Translations under genes and position numbers: made by a program
Notes under the pieces: generated by a model
What the model was told of the DNA's origin: nothing
The model's database searches: none
Seen by the model: only the letters and a program-made list of their open reading frames with translations
Assembly: GCA_026261815.1 (NCBI GenBank)
Contig: JAMPIT010000350.1
Coordinates: 4,007,650-4,071,649, forward strand
Direction of reading: 5' to 3'
Origin: Monarcha castaneiventris obscurior
Taxonomy: Eukaryota; Chordata; Aves; Passeriformes; Monarchidae
DNA length: 64,000 nucleotides
Shown here: piece by piece, positions 3,493-64,000 of the stretch
Numbering within the stretch: position 1 is the stretch's first letter
Layout: each line of letters starts with the position of its first letter

Positions 3493-6400
3493 GATGGAGT
3501 GCTCATTTCTGCCCAGTGTTCTTTCTTAGGCTCCGCATAGTGCGTAGTTTAGGGTTATGCCTAGAGTTAGGGTTCAGAAAACCAAAAAGCCCAGAGCTCC
3601 AGGGACACTAAAAATGCAAAAGGCATGCCAAGAGAAATGCAAAACAGCCCCAAACATGCGGCATCTTTAGCTTTCTTATGGGACCTCATTTCTGCCCAGT
3701 GCTCTTTCTTAGGCACCACATAGTGTGAACTTTAGGGTTATACCTAGACTTAGGGTTCAGAAAACCAAAAAGCCCAGATCTCCAAAGGCACGAAAAGTGC
3801 AAAAGGCATGACCAGAGAAATGCAAAACAGCTCCAATCATCTGCCATCTTGATATTCCTGGTCAGTGCTCATTTCTGCCCAGTGCTCTTTCTTAGGCACC
3901 ACATAGTGTGAGGTTTAGGGTGAAGGCTAAGGTTAGGGTTCAGAAAATCAAAAAGCCCAGACCTCCAGGGACACTAAAAATGCGAAAGGCATGCCAGGAG
4001 AAATGCAAATTAGCTCCAATCATCTGCCATCTTGATATTCCTGGTCCGCGCTCATTTCTGCCCAGTGCTCTTTCTAAGGCTCTGCATAGTGCGAAGTTTA
4101 GGGTTACACCTAGGGTTAGGGTTCAGAAAAGCAAAAAGCCCAGAGCTCCATGGACATTAAAAAGGTGAAAGGCATGCCAAGAGAAATCCAAAACAGCCCC
4201 AGTAATCTGCCATTGTCATCTTCCTGATCAGCGCTCATTTCTGACCAGTGCTCTTTTCAGGATCCGCATAGTGCGAAGTTTAGGGTTAAGACTAGGGTTA
4301 GGGTTCAGAAAAAAAAAAAGCCCAGAGCTCCAGGGACACTAAAAATGCGAAAGGCATGCCAAGAGAAATGGAAAACAGCCCCAAATATGCAGCATCCACA
4401 TCTACCTGATCAGACCTAATTTTTGCCCAGTGCTCTTTCCAAAGCCTCCACCTTGTGCGAAGTTTAGGGTTACGCCTAGGGTTAGGGTTCACAAAACCAA
4501 AAAGCCCAATGCTCCATGGTCACTAAAAATGCGAAAAGCATGCCAAGAGAAATGCAAAACAGCCCCACACATGAGGCATCCTCATCTTCCTGATCGGACC
4601 TCGTTTCAGCCCAGTGCTCTTTCAAAAGGCTCTGAATAGGGCGAGGTTTAGGGTTACGCCTAGCTTTAGGGTTCAGAAAAGCAAAAAGCCCAGAGCTCCG
4701 GGGACATTAAAAATGCAAAAGGCATGCCAAGAGAAATGCAAATCAGCTCCAATCATCTGCCATTTTGATATTCCTGGTCCGCGCTCATTTCTGCCCAGCG
4801 CTCTTACTTAGGCCCCCCATAGTGTGAAGTTTAGCGTTGCGCCTAGGGTTAGGGTTCAGAAAATCAAAAAGCCCAGAGCTCCAGGGACACTAAAAATGCG
4901 AAAGGCATGCCAAGAGAAATGCAAAACAGCCCCACACATGCAGCATCTTCACCTTCAAGATCGGAGCTCATTTCTGCCCAGTGCTCTTTCCTAGCCTCCA
5001 CCTTGTGCGAAGTTCAGGGTTACGGCTAGGGTTAGGGGTTCAGAAAAGCAAAAAGCCCAATGCTCCATGGTGACTAAAAATGCGAAAGGCATGCCAAGAG
5101 AAATGCAAAACAGCCCCACACATGCAGCAACCTCATCTTCCTGATCTGACCTCATTTCTGCCCTGTGCTCCTTCTTAGGCTCTACATAGGGCGAAGTTTA
5201 GGGTTACGCCTAGGGTTAGGGTTCAGAACACCAAAAAGCCCAGAGCGCCAGGGACAGTTAAAATGCGAAAGGCATGCCAAGAGAAATGCAAAACAGCCCC
5301 ACACATGCAGCATCTTCACCTTCAAGATCGGAGCTCATTTCTGCCCTGTGATCTTTCTTAAGGCTCTGAATAGGGCGAACTTTAGGGTTACGCCTAGGGT
5401 TAGGGTTCAGAACACCAAAAAGCCCAGAGCTCCAGGGACACTAAAAATGCGAAAGGCATGCCAAGAGAAATGCAAAACAGCCCCACAAATGCAGCATCTT
5501 CACCTTCAAGACTGGACCTCATTTCTGCCCAGTGCTCTTTCTTAAGGCTACATATAGGGCGAAGTTTAGGGTTACGCCTAGGGTTAGGGTTCAGAAAAGC
5601 AAAAAGCCCAGAGCTCCAGGGACACTAAAAATGCGAAAGAGATGCCAAGAGAAATGCAAAACAGCCCCACACATGCAGCAACCTCATCTTCCTGATCTGA
5701 CCTCATTTCTGCCCTGTGCTCTTTCTTAGGCTCTGCATAGGGCGAAGTTTAGGGTTACGCCTAGGGTTAGGGTTCAGAACACCAAAAAGCCCAGAGCTCC
5801 AGGAACACTAAAAATGCAAAAGGCATGCCAAGAGAAATGCAAAACAGCCCCACAAATGCAGCATCTTCACCTTCAAGACTGGACCTCATTTCTGCCCTGT
5901 GCTCTTTCTTAAGGCTACATATAGGGTGAAGTTTAGGGTTACGCCTAGGGTCAGGGTTCAGAACACAAAAAAGCCCAGAGCTCCAGGGACACTAAAAATG
6001 TGAGAGCAATGCCCACACAAGTGCAAAAGAGCTCCAATCATCTGCCTTCTTCATATTCCTGATCAGTGCTAATTTCTGCCCATTGCTCCTACTCAGGCTC
6101 CGCATAGTGTGAAGTTTAGGGTTATGCCTAGGGATAGGGTTCAGAAAACTAAAAAGCCCAGAGTTCCAGGGACACTAAAAATGTGAAAGGCATGCCAAGA
6201 GAAATCCAAAACAGCCCCAGTTATCTGCCATTTTTCATCTTCCTGATCAGCGCTCATTTCTGACCAGTACTCTTTTCAGGATCTGCATAGTGCGAAGTTT
6301 AGGGTTACGGCTATGGTTAGGGTTCGGAAAACCAAAAAGCCCAGAGCCCCATGGACACTAAAAATGCGAAAGAGATGCCAAGAGAAATGCAAAACAGCCC

Positions 6401-6515
6401 CACACATGCAGCAACCTCATCTTCCTGATCTGACCTCATTTCTGCCCTGTGCTCTTTCTTAGGCTCTGCATAGGGCGAAGTTTAGGGTTACGCCTAGGGT
6501 TAGGGTTCAGAACAC
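3493..6515 (+). repeat. Diverged left-edge domain of the satellite
   Basis: About 16 monomers at the junction with single-copy DNA. They are the least uniform in the window. The telomere-like block is often altered (for example GCCTAGAGTTAGGG near 3558 and AAGGCTAAGGTTAGGG near 3922), and several monomers carry private variants that are rare or absent further in. This is the pattern expected at the edge of a satellite array, where unequal exchange homogenises less. A subset of these edge variants (about 4650-5250) recurs at about 7403-8003. Confidence 0.8.
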
Positions 6516-7063
6516 TGTCCTGGGTTGCAGTGTATTCTATTACCACCCTCATGAACCGTTGAAACCAGGTGGGGCAGTATTTCCTTGCCTCCTCCCTCCA
6601 GACTATTGTTCTGTTAATGGCCCATTAATGTTGTGCGGCATGACTCAGCAGTAACTCCCCCCCGGACTATCTGCTGTTAACGAGCCCATCAACACCTGGC
6701 CTCATGACTCATCATCCCATTGGGAGAGGCTCCGCCCAGAGGGGGGAATCAAGCGTTCCATCCCAGATAAATCTGGGCTTCTGAACGCCACGCGGGGCTG
6801 TCTACTGGATTCCTGGAGGACAAGAGCTACCACTGGACCTTCAGCTGGAGACTAGACTTCCCATAGGATCACCAATTCGACTGAACTACCTCATCTGGAC
6901 TACTACCACCACCCTAATAGGGTGTCAGGTATTCTGACTTTGTCTGTGTTTTTCTTTTCCTTTTTCCCTTGTATTATTTCACTTATTTTTAAATATTTAT
7001 TTTCCCTATTAAATTTTAACCCTGACTTGGGATCTCGCTCTGGTTTGTTTTCAAACCTTTACA
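6516..7063 (+). mobile_element. Solo LTR of an avian endogenous retrovirus, copy 1 (548 bp)
   Basis: A 548-bp segment unlike the satellite interrupts a monomer exactly between GGGTTCAGAACAC and ACACCAAAAAGCC. It begins TGTCC and ends TTACA, the TG...CA ends of retroviral LTRs, and is flanked by a 4-bp duplication ACAC (6512-6515 and 7064-7067). An uninterrupted version of the same site at about 8893-8896 confirms the insertion point. Internally there is a perfect 7-bp inverted repeat at 6762-6777, a T-rich stretch, an ATTAAA polyadenylation signal at 7008-7013 and a following GT-rich stretch, as expected for U3-R-U5. There is no gag, pol or env sequence, so this is a solo LTR left by recombination between two LTRs. 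It resembles from memory a family common in passerine genomes. A 4-bp duplication fits gammaretrovirus-like elements, but AACAC on both sides leaves the length open by one base. Confidence 0.88.
7008..7013 (+). promoter_or_regulatory. ATTAAA polyadenylation signal in LTR copy 1
   Basis: ATTAAA lies 50 bp before the LTR end and is followed by a GT-rich segment (about 7031-7050). This is the usual arrangement of a retroviral LTR cleavage and polyadenylation site. It helps fix the plus-strand orientation of the element. Confidence 0.6.
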
Positions 7064-12006: not shown

Positions 12007-12554
12007 TGTCCTGGGTTGCAGTGTATTCTATTACCACCCTCATGAACCGTTGAAACCAGGTGGGGCAGTATTTCCTTGCCTCCTCCCTCCAGACTATTGT
12101 TCTGTTAATGGCCCATTAATGTTGTGCGGCATGACTCAGCAGTAACTCCCCCCCGGACTATCTGCTGTTAACGAGCCCATCAACACCTGGCCTCATGACT
12201 CATCATCCCATTGGGAGAGGCTCCGCCCAGAGGGGGGAATCAAGCATTCCATCCCAGATAAATCTGGGCTTCTGAACGCCACGCGGGGCTGTCTACTGGA
12301 TTCCTGGAGGACAAGAGCTACCACTGGACCTTCAGCTGGAGACCAGACTTCCCATAGGATCACCAATTCGACTGAACTACCTCATCTGGACTACTACCAC
12401 CACCCTAATAGGGTGTCAGGTATTCTGACTTTGTCTGTGTTTTTCTTTTCCTTTTTCCCTTGCATTATTTCACTCATTTTTAAATATTTATTTTCCCTAT
12501 TAAATTTTAACCCTGACTTGGGATCTCGCTCTGGTTTGTTTTCAAACCTTTACA
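12007..12554 (+). mobile_element. Solo LTR of an avian endogenous retrovirus, copy 2 (548 bp)
   Basis: This has the same length, orientation and ends as the LTR at 6516-7063, and differs by only four transitions that I can see over 548 bp. It sits at the identical point in the monomer with the same ACAC flanks (12003-12006 and 12555-12558). Identity continues into the flanking satellite for roughly 160 bp to the left and 320 bp to the right, then the two contexts diverge. This shows the copy arose by duplication of satellite plus LTR, not by a second insertion. There is no internal retroviral sequence. Confidence 0.88.
12499..12504 (+). promoter_or_regulatory. ATTAAA polyadenylation signal in LTR copy 2
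   Basis: Same position within the LTR as the signal at 7008-7013, unchanged. Confidence 0.6.
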
Positions 12555-16487: not shown

Positions 16488-16642
16488 TGTAGCGGGTTGA
16501 ATTCGGTAACCGGGCAGAAACACCAATTTGTGTAGTGGTTTAAGGGTTAACTCAGGCAGTAGCCCCTTTATGTCCCTTCTGTGAGATAAGCATCAGGAGA
16601 TAAAAGCAAAGTAGGCACAAAAACTGAAAGAATATAAACAAG

Positions 16643-16648
16643 TTTATT
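16643..16648 (-). promoter_or_regulatory. AATAAA polyadenylation signal in long LTR copy 1
   Basis: AATAAA on the minus strand, about 155 bp before the LTR 3' end and about 135 bp downstream of the TATA-like sequence. This supports the minus orientation. Confidence 0.55.
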
Positions 16649-16780
16649 AACAGAGTTAAAAGAAGGAAAAAGAAAGTCAGACTAAACCTTCAGAACACCT
16701 CTCTCCCCCCACTTCTGCTCCCTTCCACCACCAACGTAAAAGAAAACACAACCCTTGAAGATTCTAGTCAGTTCACCACC

Positions 16781-16788
16781 TATATAAT
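16781..16788 (-). promoter_or_regulatory. TATA-like element in long LTR copy 1
   Basis: The minus strand reads TATATAGG across this point. Its spacing to the polyadenylation signal suits an LTR core promoter, but short AT-rich matches like this also occur by chance. Confidence 0.35.
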
Positions 16789-19700
16789 AATTTCTGGCTT
16801 TCAGTTCACTTAGGGAGAGGAGTCTCTCTTGGTCAAAACCATGGAAACATCTCCACACGAAACAATCTTGTGCAGCTTCAGTGTCACAGCAAAGCAGCCG
16901 CCCGGGATGGTTCTCTGCTTGCATGTGAAAGTCCCATCCCCCGACTACAGCTTTCCCCACAGCTGTTTCGAGGGTTTCTTTAGCTAAGGGGGTACTATTT
17001 TTAAGGATGAGCAGTTCAGAAACAGAAGTTTTCTTCACTTATCGAAGTGCCTGAAAGGCGTAAGGACCCTCTCTGGGAGTAACCACATGGTCTAGGAACA
17101 GAGATCTTTCTCTCTGGTGCGATCTCTGCTCAAGTTTCTCAGCATTGCAGCACAAATACAGTTGCTCACAGCAAGTTATAGCTAGTTCAGCGTTTGCTTG
17201 TTCTAGTACAAGCACTTTTGCTCACAGTTGCAGTTTGAGCGCTCCAACCCCCCCCTAATGCTTTCAAGAAATTACAATGGGTAGTCTAATATATCATAGT
17301 CCATCACCATGGTTTTTTTCCAACAGAATTTCAGCTTCTAGGATTACAGCATCTCCTCAAATCCCCTCTCTCGAGGTCTCAGGTTTTTCTTCCTCACTGA
17401 CTTGGGCATCTTTATAGTGTCTCCTTCACAAGCCTTCACTTTCCTCTCTCCATCTGATCAGGGAGATGATTAGTCTCTGCAGGCTTCATCTGGTCTGGAA
17501 AAAACTTTAACAGCACTAAAGGAGTTAACCTCCCCCGGGCTTTGCAGCTGGCGCTTGGAATTTCCTTATCTCTTGGCCACGTGATCCTGCCGGACGGCAG
17601 TTTCAGGGGAATTTCAGCTGCTCCGGGGGTGAGGTGAGGGCCATCCTGGCTTCTGGAAGGGGGGTGTCTGGCGAGTTGAAGTGACTGCAATCTCAGCCAA
17701 GCCACCGCCCGGCCGGCAGAGCCCGGCCTGGCCCGGCCACCCCCCACCAGTTACCTGTTCGGCTGCCGGAAGCAAGAGAGAGCCTTCCCGGGCTTCCTGT
17801 TTCTTAAAATGTGATTTCACAGAGGCGTGTCAAGCTCTCTAAGTGGTTTAGAAAGTTGTCAATATTCAACCAGGCCAGTTGATTGGGTCTAGAGGGAGCT
17901 GAAAGCACCGTTTTGCAAGGAATCACTTCCTGGCCGGTGCAGCCTTCTTTAACTACAATTCCCAGCTACCCTAAACCACGACACATAGTCATCTTCCTGA
18001 TCAGTGCTCATTTCTGCCCTGTGCTCCTTCTTAGGCTCTGAATAGGGCGACGTTTAGGGTTACGCCCAGGGTTCGGGTTCAGAAAAGCAAAAAGCCCAGA
18101 GCTCCAGGGACACGAAAAATGCGAAAGGCATGCCAGGAGAAATACAAAAGAGCCCCAAACATGCAGCATCCTCATCTTCTTGATCTGACCTCATTTATGC
18201 TCCGTGTTCTTTCACAAAAGGCTCCGCATAGGGCGAAGTTTAGGGTTACGCCTAGGGTTAGGGTTCAGAAAAGCAAAAAGCCCAGAGCTCAGTGGACACT
18301 AAAAATGCGAAAGGCATGCCAAGAGAAATGCAAAACAGCCCCACAAATGCAGCATCTTCACCTTCAAGATCGGAGCTCATTTCTGCCCAGTGCTCTTTCT
18401 TAAGGCTACATATAGGGCGAAATTTAGGGTTACGCCTAGGGTTAGGGTTCAGAAAAGCAAAAAGCCCAGAGCTCAGTGGACACTAAAAATGCGAAAGGCA
18501 TGCCAAGAGAAATGCAAAACAGCCCCACAAATGCAGCATCTTCACCTTCAAGACTGGACCTCATTTCTGCCCAGTGCTCCTTCTTAGGCTCTGAATAGGG
18601 CGAAGTTTAGGGTTACACCTAGAGTTAGGGTTCAGAACACCAAAAAGCCCAGAGCTCTATGGACAGTTATAATGCGAAAGGCATGTCAAGAGAAATGTAA
18701 AACAGCGCAAGTTATCTGCCATGGTCATCTTCTCCATCAGTGCTCACTTCTGCCCAGTGCTCCTTCTTAGGCTCTGAATAGGGCGAACTTTAGGGTTACG
18801 CCGAGGGTTAGGGTTCAGAACACCAAAAAGCCCAGAGCTCCAGGGACACTAAAAATGCGAAAGGCATGCCAAGAGAAATGCAAAACAGCCCCACAAATGC
18901 AGCATCTTCACCTTCAAGACTGGACCTCATTTTTGCCCAGTGCTCTTTCTTAAGGCTACATATAGGGCGAAGTTTAGGGTTATGCCTAGGGTTAGGGTTC
19001 AGAAAAGCAAAAAGCCCAGAGCTCCAGGGACACTAAAAATGTGAAAGGCATGTCAAGAGAAATGCAAAACAGTTCCAAACATGCAGCATCCTCATCTTCC
19101 AGATCGGACCTCATTTCTGCCCAGTGCTCTTTCAAAAGGATCTGAATGGGGCGAACTTTAGGGTTACGCCTAGGGTTAGGGTTCAGAAAACCAAAAAGCC
19201 CAGAGCTCCGGGGACATGAAAAATGCAAAAGGCATGCCGAGAGAAAAAACAGCCACAATCAACTGCCATCTTGATATTCCTGATCCGCGCTCATTTCGGC
19301 CCAGCGCTCTTATGAAGGCACCCCATAGTGTGAAGTTTAGGGTTTTGCCGAGGGTTAGGGTTCACAAAAGCAAAAAGCCCAGAGCTCCAGGGACACTAAA
19401 AATGCGAAAGGCATGCCAAGAGAAATGTACAACAGGCCAATCATCTGCCATTGTGATATTACTGGTCAGAGCTCATTCCTGCCCAGTGCTCTTACTTAGG
19501 CCACCCCATAGTGCAAAGTTTAGGGTTTCGCCTAGGGTTAGGGGTCAGAAAAGCAAAAAGCCCAGAGCTCTATGGACAGTTATAATGCGAAAGGCATGTC
19601 AAGAGAAATGCAAAAGTGCCCCAATTATCTGCCATGGTCATCTTCCTGATCAGCGCTCACTTCTGCCCAGTGCTCCTTCTTAGGCTCTGAATAGGGCGAA

Positions 19701-40516: not shown

Positions 40517-40522
40517 TTTATT
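40517..40522 (-). promoter_or_regulatory. AATAAA polyadenylation signal in long LTR copy 2
   Basis: Unchanged counterpart of the minus-strand AATAAA at 16643-16648. Confidence 0.55.
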
Positions 40523-40654
40523 AACAGAGTTAAAAGAGGGAAAAAGAAAGTCAGACTAAACCTTCAGAACACCTCTCTCCCCCCACTTCTGCTCCCTTCC
40601 ACCACCAACGTAAAAGAAAACACAACCCTTGAAGATTTTAGTCAGTTCACCACC

Positions 40655-40662
40655 TATATAAT
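40655..40662 (-). promoter_or_regulatory. TATA-like element in long LTR copy 2
   Basis: Unchanged counterpart of the TATA-like sequence at 16781-16788, with the same reservations. Confidence 0.35.
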
Positions 40663-41877
40663 AATTTCTGGCTTTCAGTTCACTTAGGGAGAGGAGTCTC
40701 TCTTGGTCAAAACCATGGAAACATCTCCACACGAAACAATCTCGTGCAGCTTCAGTGTCACAGCAAAGCAGCCGCCCGGGATGGTTCTCTGCTTGCATGT
40801 GAAAGTCCCATCCCCCGACTACAGCTTTCCCCACAGCTGTTTCGAGGGTTTCTTTAGCTAAGGGGGTACTATTTTTAAGGATGAGCAGTTCAGAAACAGA
40901 AGTTTTCTTCACTTATCGAAGTGCCTGAAAGGCGTAAGGACCCTCTCTGGGAGTAACCACATGGTCTAGGAACAGAGATCCTTTTCTCTGGTGCGATCTC
41001 TGCTCAAGTTTCTCAGCATTGCAGCACAAATACAGTTGCTCACAGCAAGTTATAGCTAGTTCAGCGTTTGCTTGTTCTAGTACAAGCACTTTTGCTCACA
41101 GTTGCAGTTTGAGCGCTCCAACCCCCCCCTAATGCTTTCAAGAAATTACAATGGGTAGTCTAATATATCATAGTCCATCACCATGGTTTTTTTCCAACAG
41201 AATTTCAGCTTCTAGGATTACAGCATCTCCTCAAATCCCCTCTCTCGAGGTCTCAGGTTTTTCTTCCTCACTGACTTGGGCATCTTTATAGTGTCTCCTT
41301 CACAAGCCTTCACTTTCCTCTCTCCATCTGATCAGGGAGATGATTAGTCTCTGCAGGCTTCATCTGGTCTGGAAAAAACTTTAACAGCACTAAAGGAGTT
41401 AACCTCCCCCGGGCTTTGCAGCTGGCGCTTGGAATTTCCTTATCTCTTGGCCACGTGATCCTGCCGGACGGCAGTTTCAGGGGAATTTCAGCTGCTCCGG
41501 GGGTGAGGTGAGGGCCATCCTGGCTTCTGGAAGGGGGGTGTCTGGCGAGTTGAAGTGACTGCAATCTCAGCCAAGCCACCCCCTGGCCGACCCGGGCCAG
41601 GCCCGGCCGGCAGAGCCTGGCCTGGCCCGGCCACCCCCCACCAGTTACCTGTTCGGCTGCCGGAAGCAAGAGAGAGCCTTCCCGGGCTTTCTGCTTCTTA
41701 AAATGTGATTTCACAGAGGCGTGTCAAGCTCTCTAAGTGGTTTAGAAAGTTGTCAATATTCCACCTGGCCAGTTGAATGGGTCTAGAGGGAGCTGAAAGC
41801 ACCGTTTTGCAAGGAATCACTTCCTGGCCGGTGCAGCCTTCTTTAACTACAATTCCCAGCTACCCTAAACCACGACA

Positions 41878-44800: not shown

Positions 44801-46953
44801 AATGCAGCATCTTCACCTTCAAGACTGGACCTCATTTCTGCCCAGTGCTCTTTCTTAAGGCTACATATAGGGCGAAGTTTAGGGTTACGCCTAGGGTTAG
44901 GGTTCAGAAAAGCAAAAAGCCCAGAGCTCCAGGGACACTAAAAATGCGAAAGGCATGTCAAGAGAAATGCAAAACAGTTCCAAACATGCAGCATCCTCAT
45001 CTTCCAGATCGGACCTCATTTCTGCCCAGTGCTCTTTCAAAAGGATCTGCATAGGGCGAACTTTAGGGTTACGCCTAGGGTTAGGGTTCAGAAAACCAAA
45101 AAGCCCAGAGCTCCGGGGACATGAAAAATGCAAAAGGCATGCCGAGAGAAAAAACAGCCACAATCAACTGCCATCTTGATATTCCTGATCCGCGCTCATT
45201 TCTGCCCCGCGCTCTTATTAAGGCACCCCATAGTGTGAAGTTTAGGGTTACGCCTAGGGTTCGGGTTCAGAAAAGCAAAAAGCCCAGAGCTCCAGGGACA
45301 CTAAAAATGCGAAAGGCATGCCAAGAGAAATGCAAAACAGCCCAACATATGCCATCCTCATCTTCCTGATCTGACCTCATTTCTGCCCAGTGCTCTTTCT
45401 TAGGCACCGCATAGGGCGAAGTTTAGGGTTACGCCTAGGGTTAGGGTTCAGAAAAGCAAAAAGCCCAGAGCTCCAGGGACACTAAAAATGCGAAAGGCAT
45501 GCCAAGAGAAATGCAAAACAGCCCCAACACATGCAGCAACCTCATCTTCAAGATCGGACCTCATTTCTGCCCAGTGCTCTTTCTTAAGGCTACACATAGG
45601 GCGAAGTTTAGGGTTACGCCTAGGGTTAGGGTTCAGAACACCAAAAAGCCCAGAGCTCCAGGGACACTAAAAATGCGAAAGGCATGCCAAGAGAAATGCA
45701 AAACAGCCCCAGACATCAGCCTCTTCATCTTCCAGATCAGAGCTCATTTCTGCCCAGTGCTCTTTCCTAGCCTGCACTAGTGCGAAGTTTAGGGTTACGC
45801 CTAGGGTTAGGGTTCAGAAAAGCAAAAAGCCCAGAGCTCCAGGGACACTAAAAATGCGAAAGGCATGCCAAGAGAAATACAAAACAGCCCCACACATGCA
45901 GCATCCTCATCTTCATGATCGGACCTCATTTCTGCCCAGTGCTCTTTCTTAGGCTCCGAATAGGGCGAAGTTTAGGGTTACGCCTAGGGTTAGGGTTCAG
46001 AACACCAAAAAGCCCAGAGCTCAATGGACACTAAAAATGCGAAAGGCATGCCAAGAGAAATGCAAAACAGCCCAACATATCTGCCATCCTCATCTTCCTC
46101 ATCAGCGCTCATTTCTGCCCAGTGCTCCTTCTTAGGCTCTGAATAGGGCGAAGTTTAGGGTTACGCCTAGGGTTAGGGTTCAGAAAAGCAAAAAGCCCAG
46201 AGCTCCATGGACAGTAAAAATGCGAAAGGCATGCCAAGAGAAATGCAAAACAGCCCCACAAATGCACCATCTTCACCTTCCAGATCGGACCTCATTTCTG
46301 CCCAGTGCTCTTTCTAAAGGATCTGAATAGGGCGAACTTTAGGGTTACGCCTAGGGTTAGGGTTCAGAAAACCAAAAAGCCCAGAGCTCCAGGGACACTA
46401 AAAATGCGAAAGGCATGCCAAGAGAAATGTACAACAGCCCAATCATCTGCCATCGTGATATTACTGGTCAGAGCTCATTTCTGCCCAGTGCTCTTACTTA
46501 GGCCACCCCATAGTGCAAAGTTTAGGGTTACGCCTAGGGTTAGGGGTCAGAAAACCAAAAAGCCCAGAGCTCCAGGGACACTAAAAATGCGAAAGGCATG
46601 CCAAGAGAAATGCAAAACAGCCCCAAATCTGCATCCTCATCTTCCTGATCAGCGCTCATTTCTGCCCAGTGCTCTTCTTAGGCTCTGAATAGGGCGAAGT
46701 TTAGGGTTACGCCTAGGGTTAGGGTTCAGAAAAGCAAAAAGCCCAGAGCTCCAGGGACACTAAAAATGCGAAAGGCATGCCAAGAGAAATGCAAAACAGC
46801 CCCAAACATGCAGCATCCTCATCTTCAAGATCGGACCTCATTTCTGCCCAGTGCTCTTTCTTAAGGCTACACATAGGGCGAAGTTTAGGGTTACGCCTAG
46901 GGTCAGGGTTCAGAACACAAAAAAGCCCAGAGCTCCAGGGACACTAAAAATGC
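41878..46953 (+). repeat. Satellite block between the long LTR and the homogenised domain
   Basis: About 28 monomers. The first part (to about 45.2 kb) carries the same variant series as the homogenised domain to the right. From about 45.28 to 46.85 kb there is instead a run of monomers close to the general consensus, with spacers not seen in the regular units, for example CCAACATATGCC at 45351 and CCCCAAATCTGC at 46621. The spacing between GAGAGCAATGCCCAC markers at 42754 and 46954 is 4,200 bp, 23 monomers. Confidence 0.88.
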
Positions 46954-49332
46954 GAGAGCAATGCCCACACAAGTGCAAAAGAGCTCCAATCATCTGCCTT
47001 CTTCATATTCCTGATCAGTGCTAATTTCTGCCCATTGCTCCTACTCAGGCTCCGCATAGTGTGAAGTTTAGGGTTACGCCTAGGGATAGGGTTCAGAAAA
47101 CTAAAAAGCCCAGAGTTCCAGGGACACTAAAAATGTGAAAGGCATGCCAAGAGAAATCCAAAACAGCCCCAGTTATCTGCCATTTTTCATCTTCCTGATC
47201 AGCGCTCATTTCTGACCAGTACTCTTTTCAGGATCTGCATAGTGCGAAGTTTAGGGTTACGGCTATGGTTAGGGTTCAGAAAACCAAAAAGCCCAGAGCC
47301 CCATGGACACTAAAAATGCGAAAGGCATGTCAAGAGAAATGCAAAAGTGCCCCAATTACCTGCCATGGTCATCTTCCTGATCAGCGCTCACTTCTGCCCA
47401 GTGCTCTTTCTTAGGCTCTGAATAGGGCGAAGCTTAGGGTTACGCCTAGGGTAAGGGTTCAGAAAAGCAAAAAGCCCAGAGCTCCAGGGACACTAAAAAT
47501 GCGAAAGGCATGCCAAGAGAAATGTAAAACAGGCCAATCATCTGCCATTGTGATATTACTGGTCAGAGCTCATTTCTGCCCAGTGCTCTTTATAAGCCAC
47601 CCCATAGTGCAAAGTTTAGGGTTACGGCCAAGTTTAGGGTTCAGAAAAGCAAAAAGCCCAGAGTTCCAGGGACACTAAAAATGTGAAAGGCATGCCAAGA
47701 GAAATCCAAAACAGCCCCAGTTACCTGCCATTGTCATCTTCCTGATCAGCGCTCATTTCTGCCCAGTGCTCTTTTCAGGATCCGCATAGTGCGAAGTTTA
47801 GGGTTATGGCTATGGTTAGGGTTCAGAAAAGCAAAAAGCCCAGAGCTCCAGGGACACGAAAAATGCGAAAGGCATGCCAGGAGAAATACAAAAGAGCCCC
47901 AAACATGCAGCATCCTCATCTTCTTGATCTGACCTCATTTATGCTCCGTGTTCTTTCACAAAAGGCTCCGCATAGGGCGAAGTTTAGGGTTACGCCTAGG
48001 GTTAGGGTTCAGAAAAGCAAAAAGCCCAGAGCTCAATGGACACTAAAAATGCGAAAGGCATGCCAAGAGAAATGCAAAACAGCCCCACACATGCGCCATC
48101 CTCATCTTCCTGATCGGACCTCATTTCAGCCCAGTGCTCCTTCTTAGGCTCTGAATAGGGCGAAGTTTAGGGTTACACCTAGGGTTAGGGTTCAGAACAC
48201 CAAAAAGCCCAGAGCTCTATGGACAGTTATAATGCGAAAGGCATGTCAAGAGAAATGCAAAACAGCCCAAGTTATCTGCCATGGTCATCTTCCTCATCAG
48301 CGCTCACTTCTGCCCAGTGCTCCTTCTTAGGCTCTGAATAGGGCGAAGTTTAGGGTTACGCCTAGGGTTCGGGTTCAGAAAAGCAAAAAGCCCAGAGCTC
48401 TATGGACAGTTATAATGCGAAAGGCATGCCAAGAGAAATGCAAAACAGCCCCACACATGCAGCATCTTCACCTTCAAGATCGGAGCTCATTTCTGCCCTG
48501 TGCTCTTTCTTAAGGCTCTGAATAGGGCGAAGTTTAGGGTTACGCCTAGGGTTAGGGTTCAGAAAACCAAAAAGCCCAGAGCTCAATGGACACTAAAAAT
48601 GCGAAAGGCATGCCAAGAGAAATGCAAAACAGCCCCACAAATGCAGCATCTTCACCTTCAAGACTGGACCTCATTTCTGCCCAGTGCTCTTTCTTAAGGC
48701 TACATATAGGGCGAAGTTTAGGGTTACGCCTAGGGTTAGGGTTCAGAAAACCAAAAAGCCCAGAGCTCCAGGGACACTAAAAATGCGAAAGGCATGTCAA
48801 GAGAAATGCAAAACAGTTCCAAACATGCAGCATCCTCATCTTCCAGATCGGACCTCATTTCTGCCCAGTGCTCTTTCAAAAGGATCTGCATAGGGCGAAC
48901 TTTAGGGTTACGCCTAGGGTTAGGGTTCAGAAAACCAAAAAGCCCAGAGCTCCGGGGACATGAAAAATGCAAAAGGCATGCCGAGAGAAAAAACAGCCAC
49001 AATCAACTGCCATCTTGATATTCCTGATCCGCGCTCATTTCTGCCCAGCGCTCTTATTAAGGCACCCCATAGTGTGAAGTTTAGGGTTACGCCTAGGGTT
49101 CGGGTTCAGAAAAGCAAAAAGCCCAGAGCTCCAGGGACACTAAAAATGCGAAAGAGATGCCAAGAGAAATGCAAAACAGCCCCACACATGCAGCAACCTC
49201 ATCTTCCTGATCTGACCTCATTTCTGCCCTGTGCTCTTTCTTAGGCTCTGCATAGGGCGAAGTTTAGGGTTACGCCTAGGGTCAGGGTTCAGAACACAAA
49301 AAAGCCCAGAGCTCCAGGGACACTAAAAATGC
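46954..49332 (+). repeat. 13-monomer higher-order unit 1 (about 2,379 bp)
   Basis: Bounded by successive GAGAGCAATGCCCAC markers, which occur once per unit. The unit contains 13 monomers in fixed order, including one GTAAAACAGGCC monomer, one GCTCAATGG monomer, two or three GGACAGTTATAATG monomers and one CCGAGAGAAAAAACAGCC monomer. The start is an arbitrary phase choice. Confidence 0.85.
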
Positions 49333-51710
49333 GAGAGCAATGCCCACACAAGTGCAAAAGAGCTCCAATCATCTGCCTTCTTCATATTCCTGATCAGTGC
49401 TAATTTCTGCCCATTGCTCCTACTCAGGCTCCGCATAGTGTGAAGTTTAGGGTTACGCCTAGGGATAGGGTTCAGAAAACTAAAAAGCCCAGAGTTCCAG
49501 GGACACTAAAAATGTGAAAGGCATGCCAAGAGAAATCCAAAACAGCCCCAGTTATCTGCCATTTTTCATCTTCCTGATCAGCGCTCATTTCTGACCAGTA
49601 CTCTTTTCAGGATCTGCATAGTGTGAAGTTTAGGGTTACGGTATGGTTAGGGTTCAGAAAACCAAAAAGCCCAGAGCCCCATGGACACTAAAAATGCGAA
49701 AGGCATGTCAAGAGAAATGCAAAAGTGCCCCAATTACCTGCCATGGTCATCTTCCTGATCAGCGCTCACTTCTGCCCAGTGCTCTTTCTTAGGCTCTGAA
49801 TAGGGCGAAGCTTAGGGTTACGCCTAGGGTAAGGGTTCAGAAAAGCAAAAAGCCCAGAGCTCCAGGGACACTAAAAATGCGAAAGGCATGCCAAGAGAAA
49901 TGTAAAACAGGCCAATCATCTGCCATTGTGATATTACTGGTCAGAGCTCATTTCTGCCCAGTGCTCTTTATAAGCCACCCCATAGTGCAAAGTTTAGGGT
50001 TACGGCCAAGTTTAGGGTTCAGAAAAGCAAAAAGCCCAGAGTTCCAGGGACACTAAAAATGTGAAAGGCATGCCAAGAGAAATCCAAAACAGCCCCAGTT
50101 ACCTGCCATTGTCATCTTCCTGATCAGCGCTCATTTCTGCCCAGTGCTCTTTTCAGGATCCGCATAGTGCGAAGTTTAGGGTTATGGCTATGGTTAGGGT
50201 TCAGAAAAGCAAAAAGCCCAGAGCTCCAGGGACACGAAAAATGCGAAAGGCATGCCAGGAGAAATACAAAAGAGCCCCAAACATGCAGCATCCTCATCTT
50301 CTTGATCTGACCTCATTTATGCTCCGTGTTCTTTCACAAAAGGCTCCGCATAGGGCGAAGTTTAGGGTTACGCCTAGGGTTAGGGTTCAGAAAAGCAAAA
50401 AGCCCAGAGCTCAATGGACACTAAAAATGCGAAAGGCATGCCAAGAGAAATGCAAAACAGCCCCACACATGCGCCATCCTCATCTTCCTGATCGGACCTC
50501 ATTTCAGCCCAGTGCTCCTTCTTAGGCTCTGAATAGGGCGAAGTTTAGGGTTACACCTAGGGTTAGGGTTCAGAACACCAAAAAGCCCAGAGCTCTATGG
50601 ACAGTTATAATGCGAAAGGCATGTCAAGAGAAATGCAAAACAGCCCAAGTTATCTGCCATGGTCATCTTCCTCATCAGCGCTCACTTCTGCCCAGTGCTC
50701 CTTCTTAGGCTCTGAATAGGGCGAAGTTTAGGGTTACGCCTAGGGTTAGGGTTCAGAAAAGCAAAAAGCCCAGAGCTCTATGGACAGTTATAATGCGAAA
50801 GGCATGCCAAGAGAAATGCAAAACAGCCCCACACATGCAGCATCTTCACCTTCAAGATCGGAGCTCATTTCTGCCCTGTGCTCTTTCTTAAGGCTCTGAA
50901 TAGGGCGAACTTTAGGGTTACGCCTAGGGTTAGGGTTCAGAAAACCAAAAAGCCCAGAGCTCTATGGACACTAAAAATGCGAAAGGCATGCCAAGAGAAA
51001 TGCAAAACAGCCCCACACATGCAGCATCTTCACCTTCAAGATCGGACCTCATTTCTGCCCAGTGCTCTTTCTTAAGGCTCTGAATAGGGCGAAGTTTAGG
51101 GTTACGCCTAGGGTTAGGGTTCAGAAAACCAAAAAGCCCAGAGCTCCAGGGACACTAAAAATGCGAAAGGCATGTCAAGAGAAATGCAAAACAGTTCCAA
51201 ACATGCAGCATCCTCATCTTCCAGATCGGACCTCATTTCTGCCCAGTGCTCTTTCAAAAGGATCTGCATAGGGCGAACTTTAGGGTTACGCCTAGGGTTA
51301 GGGTTCAGAAAACCAAAAAGCCCAGAGCTCCGGGGACATGAAAAATGCAAAAGGCATGCCGAGAGAAAAAACAGCCACAATCAACTGCCATCTTGATATT
51401 CCTGATCCGCGCTCATTTCTGCCCAGCGCTCTTATTAAGGCACCCCATAGTATGAAGTTTAGAGTTACGCCTAGGGTTCGGGTTCAGAAAAGCAAAAAGC
51501 CCAGAGCTCCAGGGACACTAAAAATGCGAAAGAGATGCCAAGAGAAATGCAAAACAGCCCCACACATGCAGCAACCTCATCTTCCTGATCTGACCTCATT
51601 TCTGCCCAGTGCTCTTTCTTAGGCTCTGCATAGGGCGAAGTTTAGGGTTACGCCTAGGGTCAGGGTTCAGAACACAAAAAAGCCCAGAGCTCCAGGGACA
51701 CTAAAAATGC
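49333..51710 (+). repeat. 13-monomer higher-order unit 2 (2,378 bp)
   Basis: Same monomer order as the unit at 46954, with only scattered substitutions. The offset between matching sites is 2,378 bp throughout, for example 48960 to 51338 for the CCGAGAGAAAAAACAGCC monomer. Confidence 0.85.
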
Positions 51711-56500: not shown

Positions 56501-57937
56501 CCCCAAACATGCAGCATCCTCATCTTCTTGATCTGACCTCATTTATGCTCCGTGTTCTTTCACAAAAGGCTCCGCATAGGGCGAAGTTTAGGGTTACGCC
56601 TAGGGTTAGGGTTCAGAAAAGCAAAAAGCCCAGAGCTCAATGGACACTAAAAATGCGAAAGGCATGCCAAGAGAAATGCAAAACAGCCCCACACATGCGC
56701 CATCCTCATCTTCCTGATCGGACCTCATTTCAGCCCAGTGCTCCTTCTTAGGCTCTGAATAGGGCGAAGTTTAGGGTTACACCTAGGGTTAGGGTTCAGA
56801 ACACCAAAAAGCCCAGAGCTCTATGGACAGTTATAATGCGAAAGGCATGTCAAGAGAAATGCAAAACAGCCCAAGTTATCTGCCATGGTCATCTTCCTCA
56901 TCAGCGCTCACTTCTGCCCAGTGCTCCTTCTTAGGCTCTGAATAGGGCGAAGTTTAGGGTTACGCCTAGGGTTCGGGTTCAGAAAAGCAAAAAGCCCAGA
57001 GCTCTATGGACAGTTATAATGCGAAAGGCATGCCAAGAGAAATGCAAAACAGCCCCACACATGCAGCATCTTCACCTTCAAGATCGGAGCTCATTTCTGC
57101 CCTGTGCTCTTTCTTAAGGCTCTGAATAGGGCGAACTTTAGGGTTACGCCTAGGGTTAGGGTTCAGAAAAGCAAAAAGCCCAGAGCTCCATGGACACTAA
57201 AAATGCGAAAGGCATGCCAAGAGAAATGCAAAACAGCCCCACACATGCAGCATCTTCACCTTCAAGACCGGACCTCATTTCTGCCCAGTGCTCTTTCTTA
57301 AGGCTACATATAGGGCGAAGTTTAGGGTTACGCCTAGGGTTAGGGTTCAGAAAACCAAAAAGCCCAGAGCTCCAGGGACACTAAAAATGCGAAAGGCATG
57401 TCAAGAGAAATGCAAAACAGTTCCAAACATGCAGCATCCTCATCTTCCAGATCGGACCTCATTTCTGCCCAGTGCTCTTTCAAAAGGATCTGCATAGGGC
57501 GAACTTTAGGGTTACGCCTAGGGTTAGGGTTCAGAAAACCAAAAAGCCCAGAGCTCCGGGGACATGAAAAATGCAAAAGGCATGCCGAGAGAAAAAACAG
57601 CCACAATCAACTGCCATCTTGATATTCCTGATCCACGCTCATTTCTGCCCAGCGCTCTTATTAAGGCACCCCATAGTATGAAGTTTAGAGTTACGCCTAG
57701 GGTTCGGGTTCAGAAAAGCAAAAAGCCCAGAGCTCCAGGGACACTAAAAATGCGAAAGAGATGCCAAGAGAAATGCAAAACAGCCCCACACATGCAGCAA
57801 CCTCATCTTCCTGATCTGACCTCATTTCTGCCCAGTCCTCTTTCTTAAGGCTACACATAGGGCGAAGTTTAGGGTTACGCCTAGGGTCAGGGTTCAGAAC
57901 ACAAAAAAGCCCAGAGCTCCAGGGACACTAAAAATGC
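53539..57937 (+). repeat. Rearranged 24-monomer segment (4,399 bp)
   Basis: Between two GAGAGCAATGCCCAC markers there are 24 monomers instead of 13. The CATTTATGCTCCGTG series appears three times (near 54520, 55810 and 56540). The segment is best read as a 13-monomer unit plus an inserted partial unit of about 11 monomers. Confidence 0.7.
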
Positions 57938-60316
57938 GAGAGCAATGCCCACACAAGTGCAAAAGAGCTCCAATCATCTGCCTTCTTCATATTCCTGATC
58001 AGTGCTAATTTCTGCCCATTGCTCCTACTCAGGCTCCGCATAGTGTGAAGTTTAGGGTTACGCCTAGGGATAGAGTTCAGAAAACTAAAAAGCCCAGAGT
58101 TCCAGGGACACTAAAAATGTGAAAGGCATGCCAAGAGAAATCCAAAACAGCCCCAGTTATCTGCCATTTTTCATCTTCCTGATCAGCGCTCATTTCTGAC
58201 CAGTACTCTTTTCAGGATCTGCATAGTGCGAAGTTTAGGGTTACGGCTATGGTTAGGGTTCAGAAAACCAAAAAGCCCAGAGCCCCATGGACACTAAAAA
58301 TGCGAAAGGCATGTCAAGAGAAATGCAAAAGTGCCCCAATTACCTGCCATGGTCATCTTCCTGATCAGCGCTCACTTCTGCCCAGTGCTCTTTCTTAGGC
58401 TCTGAATAGGGCGAAGCTTAGGGTTACGCCTAGGGTAAGGGTTCAGAAAAGCAAAAAGCCCAGAGCTCCAGGGACACTAAAAATGCGAAAGGCATGCCAA
58501 GAGAAATGTAAAACAGGCCAATCATCTGCCATTGTGATATTACTGGTCAGAGCTCATTTCTGCCCAGTGCTCTTTATAAGCCACCCCATAGTGCAAAGTT
58601 TAGGGTTACGGCCAAGTTTAGGGTTCAGAAAAGCAAAAAGCCCAGAGTTCCAGGGACACTAAAAATGTGAAAGGCATGCCAAGAGAAATCCAAAACAGCC
58701 CCAGTTACCTGTCATTGTCATCTTCCTGATCAGCGCTCATTTCTGCCCGGTGCTCTTTTCAGGATCCGCATAGTGCGAAGTTTAGGGTTATGGCTATGGT
58801 TAGGGTTCAGAACACCAAAAAGCCCAGAGCTCCAGGGACACGAAAAATGCGAAAGGCATGCCAGGAGAAATACAAAAGAGCCCCAAACATGCAGCATCCT
58901 CATCTTCTTGATCTGACCTCATTTATGCTCCGTGTTCTTTCACAAAAGGCTCCGCATAGGGCGAAGTTTAGGGTTACGCCTAGGGTTAGGGTTCAGAAAA
59001 GCAAAAAGCCCAGAGCTCAATGGACACTAAAAATGCGAAAGGCATGCCAAGAGAAATGCAAAACAGCCCCACACATGCGCCATCCTCATCTTCCTGATCG
59101 GACCTCATTTCAGCCCAGTGCTCCTTCTTAGGCTCTGAATAGGGCGAAGTTTAGGGTTACACCTAGGGTTAGGGTTCAGAACACCAAAAAGCCCAGAGCT
59201 CTATGGACAGTTATAATGCGAAAGGCATGTCAAGAGAAATGCAAAACAGCCCAAGTTATCTGCCATGGTCATCTTCCTCATCAGCGCTCACTTCTGCCCA
59301 GTGCTCCTTCTTAGGCTCTGAATAGGGCGAAGTTTAGGGTTACGCCTAGGGTTCGGGTTCAGAAAAGCAAAAAGCCCAGAGCTCTATGGACAGTTATAAT
59401 GCGAAAGGCATGCCAAGAGAAATGCAAAACAGCCCCACACATGCAGCATCTTCACCTTCAAGATCGGAGCTCATTTCTGCCCTGTGCTCTTTCTTAAGGC
59501 TCTGAATAGGGCGAACTTTAGGGTTACGCCTAGGGTTAGGGTTCAGAAAACCAAAAAGCCCAGAGCTCAATGGACACTAAAAATGCGAAAGGCATGCCAA
59601 GAGAAATGCAAAACAGCCCCACACATGCAGCATCTTCACCTTCAAGACTGGACCTCATTTCTGCCCAGTGCTCTTTCTTAAGGCTACATATAGGGCGAAG
59701 TTTAGGGTTACGCCTAGGGTTAGGGTTCAGAAAAGCAAAAAGCCCAGAGCTCCAGGGACACTAAAAATGCGAAAGGCATGTCAAGAGAAATGCAAAACAG
59801 TTCCAAACATGCAGCATCCTCATCTTCCAGATCGGACCTCATTTCTGCCCAGTGCTCTTTCAAAAGGATCTGCATAGGGCGAACTTTAGGGTTACGCCTA
59901 GGGTTAGGGTTCAGAAAACCAAAAAGCCCAGAGCTCCGGGGACATGAAAAATGCAAAAGGCATGCCGAGAGAAAAAACAGCCACAATCAACTGCCATCTT
60001 GATATTCCTGATCCGCGCTCATTTCTGCCCAGCGCTCTTATTAAGGCACCCCATAGTATGAAGTTTAGAGTTACGCCTAGGGTTCGGGTTCAGAAAAGCA
60101 AAAAGCCCAGAGCTCCAGGGACACTAAAAATGCGAAAGAGATGCCAAGAGAAATGCAAAACAGCCCCACACATGCAGCAACCTCATCTTCCTGATCTGAC
60201 CTCATTTCTGCCCTGTGCTCTTTCTTAGGCTCTGCATAGGGCGAAGTTTAGGGTTACGCCTAGGGTCAGGGTTCAGAACACAAAAAAGCCCAGAGCTCCA
60301 GGGACACTAAAAATGC
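57938..60316 (+). repeat. 13-monomer higher-order unit 3 (2,379 bp)
   Basis: Same monomer order as the units at 46954 and 49333. It shares with the next unit the GGGATAGAGTTCAG variant near its start, and with the 51.3-kb region the variant GTATGAAGTTTAGAGTTACG near its end, so neighbouring units share recent variants. Confidence 0.85.
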
Positions 60317-62696
60317 GAGAGCAATGCCCACACAAGTGCAAAAGAGCTCCAATCATCTGCCTTCTTCATATTCCTGATCAGTGCTAATTTCTGCCCATTG
60401 CTCCTACTCAGGCTCCGCATAGTGTGAAGTTTAGGGTTACGCCTAGGGATAGAGTTCAGAAAACTAAAAAGCCCAGAGTTCCAGGGACACTAAAAATGTG
60501 AAAGGCATGCCAAGAGAAATCCAAAACAGCCCCAGTTATCTGCCATTTTTCATCTTCCTGATCAGCGCTCATTTCTGACCAGTACTCTTTTCAGGATCTG
60601 CATAGTGCGAAGTTTAGGGTTACGGTTATGGTTAGGGTTCAGAAAACCAAAAAGCCCAGAGCCCCATGGACACTAAAAATGCGAAAGGCATGTCAAGAGA
60701 AATGCAAAAGTGCCCCAATTACCTGCCATGGTCATCTTCCTGATCAGCGCTCACTTCTGCCCAGTGCTCTTTCTTAGGCTCTGAATAGGGCGAAGCTTAG
60801 GGTTACGCCTAGGGTAAGGGTTCAGAAAAGCAAAAAGCCCAGAGCTCCAGGGACACTAAAAATGCGAAAGGCATGCCAAGAGAAATGTAAAACAGGCCAA
60901 TCATCTGCCATTGTGATATTACTGGTCAGAGCTCATTTCTGCCCAGTGCTCTTTATAAGCCACCCCATAGTGCAAAGTTTAGGGTTACGGCCAAGTTTAG
61001 GGTTCAGAAAAGCAAAAAGCCCAGAGTTCCAGGGACACTAAAAATGTGAAAGGCATGCCAAGAGAAATCCAAAACAGCCCCAGTTACCTGTCATTGTCAT
61101 CTTCCTGATCAGCGCTCATTTCTGCCCAGTGCTCTTTTCAGGATCCGCATAGTGCGAAGTTTAGGGTTATGGCTATGGTTAGGGTTCAGAAAAGCAAAAA
61201 GCCCAGAGCTCCAGGGACACGAAAAATGCGAAAGGCATGCCAGGAGAAATACAAAAGAGCCCCAAACATGCAGCATCCTCATCTTCTTGATCTGACCTCA
61301 TTTATGCTCCGTGTTCTTTCACAAAAGGCTCCGCATAGGGCGAAGTTTAGGGTTACGCCTAGGGTTAGGGTTCAGAAAAGCAAAAAGCCCAGAGCTCAAT
61401 GGACACTAAAAATGCGAAAGGCATGCCAAGAGAAATGCAAAACAGCCCCACACATGCGCCATCCTCATCTTCCTGATCGGACCTCATTTCAGCCCAGTGC
61501 TCCTTCTTAGGCTCTGAATAGGGCGAAGTTTAGGGTTACACCTAGGGTTAGGGTTCAGAACACCAAAAAGCCCAGAGCTCTATGGACAGTTATAATGCGA
61601 AAGGCATGTCAAGAGAAATGCAAAACAGCCCAAGTTATCTGCCATGGTCATCTTCCTCATCAGCGCTCACTTCTGCCCAGTGCTCCTTCTTAGGCTCTGA
61701 ATAGGGCGAAGTTTAGGGTTACGCCTAGGGTTAGGGTTCAGAAAAGCAAAAAGCCCAGAGCTCTATGGACAGTTATAATGCGAAAGGCATGCCAAGAGAA
61801 ATGCAAAACAGCCCCACACATGCAGCATCTTCACCTTCAAGATCGGAGCTCATTTCTGCCCTGTGCTCTTTCTTAAGGCTCTGAATAGGGCGAACTTTAG
61901 GGTTACGCCTAGGGTTAGGGTTCAGAAAACCAAAAAGCCCAGAGCTCCATGGACACTAAAAATGCGAAAGGCATGCCAAGAGAAATGCAAAACAGCCCCA
62001 CAAATGCAGCATCTTCACCTTCAAGACTGGACCTCATTTCTGCCCAGTGCTCTTTCTTAAGGCTACATATAGGGCGAAGTTTAGGGTTACGCCTAGGGTT
62101 AGGGTTCAGAAAAGCAAAAAGCCCAGAGCTCCAGGGACACTAAAAATGCGAAAGGCATGTCAAGAGAAATGCAAAACAGTTCCAAACATGCAGCATCCTC
62201 ATCTTCCAGATCGGACCTCATTTCTGCCCAGTGCTCTTTCAAAAGGATCTGCATAGGGCGAACTTTAGGGTTACGCCTAGGGTTAGGGTTCAGAAAACCA
62301 AAAAGCCCAGAGCTCCGGGGACATGAAAAATGCAAAAGGCATGCCGAGAGAAAAAACAGCCACAATCAACTGCCATCTTGATATTCCTGATCCGCGCTCA
62401 TTTCTGCCCAGCGCTCTTATTAAGGCACCCCATAGTGTGAAGTTTAGGGTTACGCCTAGGGTTCGGGTTCAGAAAAGCAAAAAGCCCAGAGCTCCAGGGA
62501 CACTAAAAATGCGAAAGAGATGCCAAGAGAAATGCAAAACAGCCCCACACATGCAGCAACCTCATCTTCCAGATCGGACCTCATTTCTGCCCTGTGCTCT
62601 TTCTTAAGGCTACACATAGGGCGAAGTTTAGGGTTACGCCTAGGGTCAGGGTTCAGAACACAAAAAAGCCCAGAGCTCCAGGGACACTAAAAATGC
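60317..62696 (+). repeat. 13-monomer higher-order unit 4 (2,380 bp)
   Basis: Same order as unit 3, with offsets of 2,379-2,380 bp at all matching sites. Confidence 0.85.
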
Positions 62697-64000
62697 GAGA
62701 GCAATGCCCACACAAGTGCAAAAGAGCTCCAATCATCTGCCTTCTTCATATTCCTGATCAGTGCTAATTTCTGCCCATTGCTCCTACTCAGGCTCCGCAT
62801 AGTGTGAAGTTTAGGGTTACGCCTAGGGATAGAGTTCAGAAAACTAAAAAGCCCAGAGTTCCAGGGACACTAAAAATGTGAAAGGCATGCCAAGAGAAAT
62901 CCAAAACAGCCCCAGTTATCTGCCATTTTTCATCTTCCTGATCAGCGCTCATTTCTGACCAGTACTCTTTTCAGGATCTCCATAGTGCGAAGTTTAGGGT
63001 TACGGCTATGGTTAGGGTTCAGAAAACCAAAAAGCCCAGAGCCCCATGGACACTAAAAATGCGAAAGGCATGTCAAGAGAAATGCAAAACAGTTCCAAAC
63101 ATGCAGCATCCTCATCTTCTTGATCTGACCTCATTTATGCCCCGTGTTCTTTCACAAAAGGCTCTGAATAGGGCGAAGTTTAGGGTTACGCCTAGGGTTA
63201 GGGTTCAGAAAAGCAAAAAGCCCAGAGCTCCATGGACACTAAAAATGCGAAAGGCATGCCAAGAGAAATGCAAAACAGCCCCAAACATCAGCCAACCTCA
63301 TCTTCCTGATCAGACCTCACTTCTGCCCTGTGCTCTTTCTTAGGCTCTGAATAGGGCGAAGTTCAGGGTTACGCCTAGGGTTAGGGTTCAGAAAACCAAA
63401 AAGCCCAGAGCTCCAGGGACACTAAAAATGCGAAAGGCATGCCAAGAGAAATGCAAAACAGCCCCAAAAATGCAGCATCTTCACCTTCAAGACTGGACCT
63501 CATTTTTGCCCAGTGCTCTTTCTTAAGGCTACATATAGGGCGAAGTTTAGGGTTACGCCTAGGGTTAGGGTTCAGAACACCAAAAAGCCCAGAGCTCCAG
63601 GGACACTAAAAATGCGAAAGGCATGTCAAGAGAAATGCAAAACAGTTCCAAACATGCAGCATCCTCATCTTCCAGATCGGACCTCATTTCTGCCCAGTGC
63701 TCTTTCAAAAGGATCTGAAGAGGGCGAACTTTAGGGTTACGCCTAGGGTTAGGGTTCAGAAAACCAAAAAGCCCAGAGCTCCGGGGACATGAAAAATGCA
63801 AAAGGCATGCCGAGAGAAAAAACAGCCACAATCAACTGCCATCTTGATATTCCTGATCAGCGCTCATTTCTGCCCAGCGCTCTTATTAAGGCACCCCATA
63901 GTGTGAAGTTTAGGGTTTTGCCGAGGGTTAGGGTTCACAAAAGCAAAAAGCCCAGAGCACCAGGGACACTAAAAATGCGAAAGGCATGCCAAGAGAAATA
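62697..64000 (+). repeat. Partial unit, order departs from the 13-monomer pattern, cut by window end
   Basis: Begins like the 13-monomer unit with the GAGAGCAATGCCCAC marker, then from about 63085 changes to a different monomer series (AAAACAGTTCCAAAC followed directly by CTTCTTGATCTGACC). It includes variants otherwise typical of the 27-32 kb region, such as GATCTGAAGAGGGCG near 63713. It ends inside a monomer, so the array continues. Confidence 0.75.

Follow-up and report, generated by a model that had tools for sequence, protein, structure and literature searches.

The stretch analysed here, termed the window in the following, comprises 64,000 nucleotides of contig JAMPIT010000350.1 from the passerine bird Monarcha castaneiventris obscurior (GCA_026261815.1, positions 4,007,650 to 4,071,649 of the forward strand). 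It is largely occupied by a tandem satellite with a period of 183 bp, whose consensus monomer harbors a telomere-like block of four hexamers. Judging from sequence features, and with a probability of roughly 60%, we consider the window to hold the margin of an array of centromere type (centromeric or pericentromeric), in which the block would go back to a telomeric tract captured by the founder monomer and would have been copied passively ever since. According to this reading, the block is not a maintained two-site platform for TRF1 and TRF2, the Myb domains of which bind the sequence YTAGGGTTR (PMC5651854). The array, its flank and two examples of the block are located as follows:

3498..64000, + strand: satellite array, 183-bp period, 310 full and partial monomers, running past the window end (tandem-repeat row 3501-63999 and nhmmer profile).
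1..3497, unstranded: flank, without satellite monomers by profile search and without YTAGGGTTR.
3549..3572, + strand: block of the first edge monomer, which is diverged, TTAGGG TTATGC CTAGAG TTAGGG.
5198..5221, + strand: example of the consensus block, TTAGGG TTACGC CTAGGG TTAGGG, with site 1 at 5198-5206 and site 2 at 5210-5218.

The consensus block (profile columns 61-84) consists of the hexamers TTAGGG, TTACGC, CTAGGG and TTAGGG in register and is followed by TT. The original prediction of an in-register block of four hexamers, differing from (TTAGGG)4 in three bases, holds for this consensus: 21 of the 24 bases match, while the best match elsewhere in the monomer reaches 12. Shuffling of the monomer consensus gave a maximum of 18 in 20,000 dinucleotide-preserving and of 19 in 20,000 mononucleotide shuffles, so that the observed value lies above all 40,000. 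The monomer therefore contains an embedded telomeric motif beyond chance, the property that characterizes satellites of the chaffinch kind. Since the match far exceeds chance, a telomeric ancestry of the block is likely. Among the 301 monomers with a complete block, the exact 26-base consensus is present in 112, and the number of mismatches to (TTAGGG)4 is two in 2, three in 146, four in 96, five in 54 and six in 3 blocks. Two hexamers upstream of the block, ATAGGG is found in register in 191 of 310 monomers, an element that had not been part of the prediction.

An origin without telomeric ancestry has to be considered as well, namely the internal duplication of a 12-base unit which happens to hold TAGGG (ATAGGGCGAAGT, TTAGGGTTACGC, CTAGGGTTAGGG). 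These three 12-mers align on TAGGG by eye, the upstream ATAGGG keeps the register, and a tandem pair of exact hexamers occurs in no monomer. By itself, however, a duplication leaves unexplained why two hexamers are exact TTAGGG and the third is only one base off, and the 21 matching bases exceed every shuffle, although internal duplication is not modelled by shuffling. We regard this origin as unlikely.

If the capture of a telomeric sequence is real, it appears to be older than the divergence of the present monomers. TTAGGGTTAGGG, the two exact tandem hexamers by which an interstitial telomeric sequence was to be recognized, occurs 0 times on either strand of the window. Hexamer 2 is never TTAGGG among the 15 most frequent forms, which together account for 309 of 310 monomers including those at the edge; five of the first seven edge monomers have TTAxxC at this position, and the remaining two have TGAAGG and TTAAGA. 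Because no monomer, even at the diverged edge, comes nearer to (TTAGGG)n, the suggestion of a recent origin from telomeric DNA is not supported.

The array itself resembles a centromeric satellite in several respects. The plus-strand profile search with nhmmer, counting full and partial monomers, recovered 310 of them from about position 3500 to the window end, in accordance with the roughly 300 monomers predicted before, and an anchor motif with up to 6 substitutions matched 302 times on the plus and 0 times on the minus strand of the whole window. Mean pairwise identity among monomers is 0.848. Identity to the nearest neighbour is lowest at the array edge, averaging 0.961 in the 22 monomers starting between 3500 and 8000 (the bins leave out the monomer at 3498) compared with 0.98-0.99 deeper in the array. 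Furthermore, the monomer types recur in the order FGHMIJADKOBCP and form a 13-monomer higher-order unit of about 2.4 kb, of which four complete copies are present:

46824..49201, + strand: 13-monomer unit, copy 1 (FGHMIJADKOBCP), 99.1-99.4% identical to the other three.
49204..51579, + strand: 13-monomer unit, copy 2.
57808..60185, + strand: 13-monomer unit, copy 3.
60188..62564, + strand: 13-monomer unit, copy 4.

The mutual identity of these four units is 99.1-99.4%, whereas the monomer types inside a unit are only 77-92% alike, and the array is in this sense a higher-order-repeat satellite, with near-identical multi-monomer units built of more diverged monomers. Other orders of monomer types are seen in its left part. 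Higher-order repeats, a diverged edge and monomers of nucleosome length make up the usual appearance of centromeric satellites, and the label centromere-type is given for these three properties. They are shared with primate alpha satellite, which is composed of nucleosome-length monomers of about 171 bp arranged in higher-order units with diverged monomers at the edge; the present array differs from it in unit length and in the CENP-B box, which was absent from both strands of the monomer consensus, the sequence scanned for it, and by which the array is not a CENP-B-box array.

Alternatively, the array could be subtelomeric and the block could stem from an exchange with telomere repeats. Degenerate TTAGGG-like blocks have indeed been described in subtelomeres (PMC6410037), but the window is devoid of any (TTAGGG)n tract and the flank contains no TTAGGG on the plus strand, while the higher-order organisation and the edge of diverged monomers fit a centromere-type array. 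A subtelomeric position is, on this sequence evidence, very unlikely. Directly adjoining the array, the flank at 3440-3500 looks by eye like a degenerate piece of a monomer, in which AGAAAAAAATGCCCAAAAGGACACTGC resembles AGAAAACCAAAAAGCCCAGAG...GGGACACT.

The array is broken by four inserts resembling long terminal repeats (LTR), which belong to two kinds with two copies each:

6516..7063, unstranded: LTR-like insert with TG...CA ends, bordered by ACAC at either side; boundaries drawn by eye; shares 99.3% identity with the copy at 12007.
12007..12554, unstranded: second copy of the insert at 6516, end inferred from the alignment.
16488..17983, unstranded: LTR-like insert of about 1.5 kb with TG...CA ends and the flanking sequences CATGG and CATAG; boundaries drawn by eye; shares 97.9% identity with the copy at 40362.
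40362..41877, unstranded: second copy of the insert at 16488; boundaries drawn by eye.

The high identity within both pairs is as expected if large segments of the array were duplicated after insertion. By their appearance, the inserts also point to a bird as the probable source. Two rows of type 'a', one of them starting at 7031, are pieces of insert-split monomers that overrun into the insert and were scored as being without sites.

The earlier reading of the block was that of a TRF1/TRF2 platform maintained along the array through two sites per monomer. The window contains 427 exact matches to YTAGGGTTR on the plus strand, 0 on the minus strand and 0 in the first 3500 bases, so that the several hundred potential sites announced by the original prediction are present as far as their sequence is concerned. 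Two sites 12 bp apart exist in the consensus and in 141 successive pairs, but not in each monomer: of the 310 monomers, 268 have an intact site 1 in hexamer 1 and 158 an intact site 2 in hexamer 3, whereas only 141 have both. Within the 13-monomer unit, the consensuses of types A, D, K, O, B and C, which are consecutive, carry both sites, and those of F, G, H, M, I, J and P carry the first only; site 2 is thus missing from 7 of 13 types. Neither does site 2 show signs of constraint. Its conservation is average (rank 87 to 108 of 173 9-bp windows), and its rare variants, counted as those seen at most 2 times per type and corrected for base and CpG context, are in excess under both the strict definition of monomer types (20 observed versus 7.4 expected, rank 173 of 173) and the loose one (25 versus 16.4, rank 145 of 173). 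With both sites intact in less than half of the monomers and the second one unconstrained, a maintained two-site platform is extremely unlikely.

Monomers with both sites are clustered along the array (runs z -5.34), and this was tried as a signal specific to the block. As a control, the same score was computed for the 81 9-bp windows with an intact consensus in 35-65% of monomers. The strongest two are situated within or across the block (column 72, -6.79; column 75, -6.71), and windows outside it are about equally strong (columns 149-151, -6.05 to -6.29; columns 16-18, -5.49 to -5.90). Moreover, the two-site types are somewhat more alike outside the block (0.849) than are members of different groups (0.826). 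Because of the similar control windows and this general likeness, the clustering was taken as an effect of the higher-order repeat and dropped.

The block as a whole evolves like the remainder of the monomer. Across all monomers its mean diversity is 0.091 compared with 0.161 elsewhere, yet values below that of the block are found in 18 of 158 24-bp windows (circular-shift p 0.105). As many monomers are mutual copies of each other, kin monomers were also collapsed into 109, 63 and 26 cluster consensuses, and 17, 31 and 66 of the 158 windows were then lower, with circular-shift p values of 0.10, 0.18 and 0.37. The alignment of all monomers, which had been proposed for comparing block and spacer, hence does not single out the block. 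Nor do the data confirm a register kept while the adjacent spacer varies, as had been suggested: the 24-bp windows of lowest diversity mostly begin at columns 82-86, directly 3′ of the block and overlapping its end, where conservation exceeds that of the block. Over the first seven monomers at the edge, identity to the consensus is 0.911 for the block and 0.878 for the rest, which places the block at rank 70 among 158 windows. Within monomer types, rare variants amount to 46 of 5853 cells (0.79%) in the block and 302 of 37930 (0.80%) elsewhere, an odds ratio of 0.99. After correction for context, the block shows an excess with strict types (33 versus 22.1 expected) and no deviation with loose types (46 versus 47.0). 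Selection on the block as a whole, the other option offered by the prediction, finds no support in these values.

Several observations weigh against a passively copied telomeric tract. No uninterrupted telomeric tract was seen in the monomers, and the case for telomeric ancestry has to be made from the match itself. When columns are permuted as if they were independent, the block has a lower diversity than random sets of columns, with p 0.026 on all monomers and 0.015, 0.035 and 0.18 on the 109, 63 and 26 clusters; these p values are trusted less because adjacent columns correlate. The octamer TTAGGGTT, composed of hexamer 1 and the next TT, is preserved unchanged by 290 of 310 monomers and takes rank 7 among 174 8-mers. 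Finally, with loose types, rare variants are depleted in columns 60-68 (8 versus 15.8 expected, P 0.025; Fisher p 0.018 uncorrected for context).

The last two of these points form the basis of another interpretation, in which the single TTAGGGTT octamer per monomer would be a maintained site that TRF1, TRF2 or some other DNA-binding protein recognizes roughly once per nucleosome. CENP-B, which reads its box in primate alpha satellite, offers the comparison. In favor of such a site, the 9-bp windows at columns 60-68 rank 5 to 7 of 173, and the first seven edge monomers show no change in the octamer or in hexamers 1 and 4 but do vary in hexamers 2 and 3; over the whole array, hexamer 4 with its TT is intact in 207 of 310 monomers. 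On the other side, the six 8-mers ranked above the octamer all fall in the non-telomeric core AAAAAGCCCAGAG (columns 96-108), strict types show no depletion of rare variants in columns 60-68 (6 versus 6.5 expected), and the octamer was chosen post hoc. Selection on the first octamer alone is possible; as a general account of the array, we judge a maintained octamer decidedly unlikely. There is a very slender chance for the more far-reaching version, in which the telomere-derived TTAGGGTT would have been recruited across a centromere-type array, in the manner of a CENP-B box, to dock TRF1, TRF2 or a relative of theirs once per nucleosome, and binding would be periodic owing to the second site, which only about half of the monomers (six in a row out of 13) keep.

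The most conserved part of the monomer is not the block but a non-telomeric core:

5232..5245, + strand: core CAAAAAGCCCAGAG in the same monomer as the block at 5198 (columns 95-108).

In columns 95-108, rare variants number 13 versus 24.5 expected with loose types (P 0.008) and 8 versus 11.9 with strict types (P 0.16). Taken with the octamer, this gives a hint of two short boxes under constraint, of which only one is telomere-like, an observation that is post hoc and not firm. By its sequence conservation, the core may be more promising as a protein-binding box than is the telomere-like block.

Further sequence searches yielded little. The plus strand contains 185 non-overlapping matches to a G-quadruplex pattern with loops of up to 12 and 0 with loops of up to 7, and the monomer consensus folded as single-stranded DNA is not unusual (z 0.50). 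Rfam gave 0 matches at the gathering threshold. A 28-base satellite pattern had 0 matches in viral_contigs and genome_contigs, which carries little weight as neither is a collection of birds.

A satellite with an embedded telomere-like motif is of an already known kind, and the present array is a further member. Monomers with short TTAGGG clusters are reported for the chaffinch (Fringilla coelebs) by the title of Liangouzov et al. 2002, Russ J Genet 38:1359-1364. The chaffinch satellite, compared here by that description, is like the present array in this feature and may or may not belong to the same family. A passage citing this work among others states that in some birds TTAGGG lies inside a larger satellite and is not directly tied to rearrangements (PMC7348932), and chaffinch and redwing are listed as passerines with interstitial telomeric signals (PMC5271350). 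The chicken CNM repeat is described as forming higher-order repeats, with CENP-A centromere cores that contain (TTAGGG)n (PMC9974502). It is comparable as an avian tandem array with higher-order repeats and telomeric sequence associated with centromere cores; in contrast, its repeat is 41 bp long and the telomeric repeats are separate tracts within the array, whereas here the block lies inside the 183-bp monomer. In the monk parakeet, a candidate centromeric satellite of 191 bp was localized to centromeres by fluorescence in situ hybridization (FISH) (PMC8854603). By its description, that avian satellite has a nearly equal unit length, but the passages describing it make no mention of a telomere-like block. 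Six sequence strings of the present satellite were not found in a paper of relevance, which does not show it to be unpublished; the 4 papers in which one or two of the strings occurred are unrelated by title. Likewise, no owl satellite or other named avian satellite was matched as a source among the papers listed by the literature search.

We therefore return to the centromere-type array with a passively copied block as the preferred reading. The founder monomer of about 183 bp would have held a short interstitial telomeric tract, whose middle hexamers had already decayed before the monomers diverged. Unequal exchange and gene conversion would then have multiplied this monomer and built the 13-monomer units, the block being copied along with the rest of the monomer and evolving, as a whole, like it. 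TRF1 or TRF2 may at times contact individual sites, but the reading does not require it.

Satellites of this type could give a signal with telomere probes in FISH, or add to telomere read counts, without being telomere, and we advise caution on this point. If the octamer truly binds, telomere-binding proteins would find a second home in the hundreds of monomers that make up each array, which would bear on the sharing of proteins between telomeres and centromeres and on the marking of bird centromeres. If it does not bind, which we judge to be more likely, the array would represent a clear case of a telomere-like seed riding passively in a satellite.

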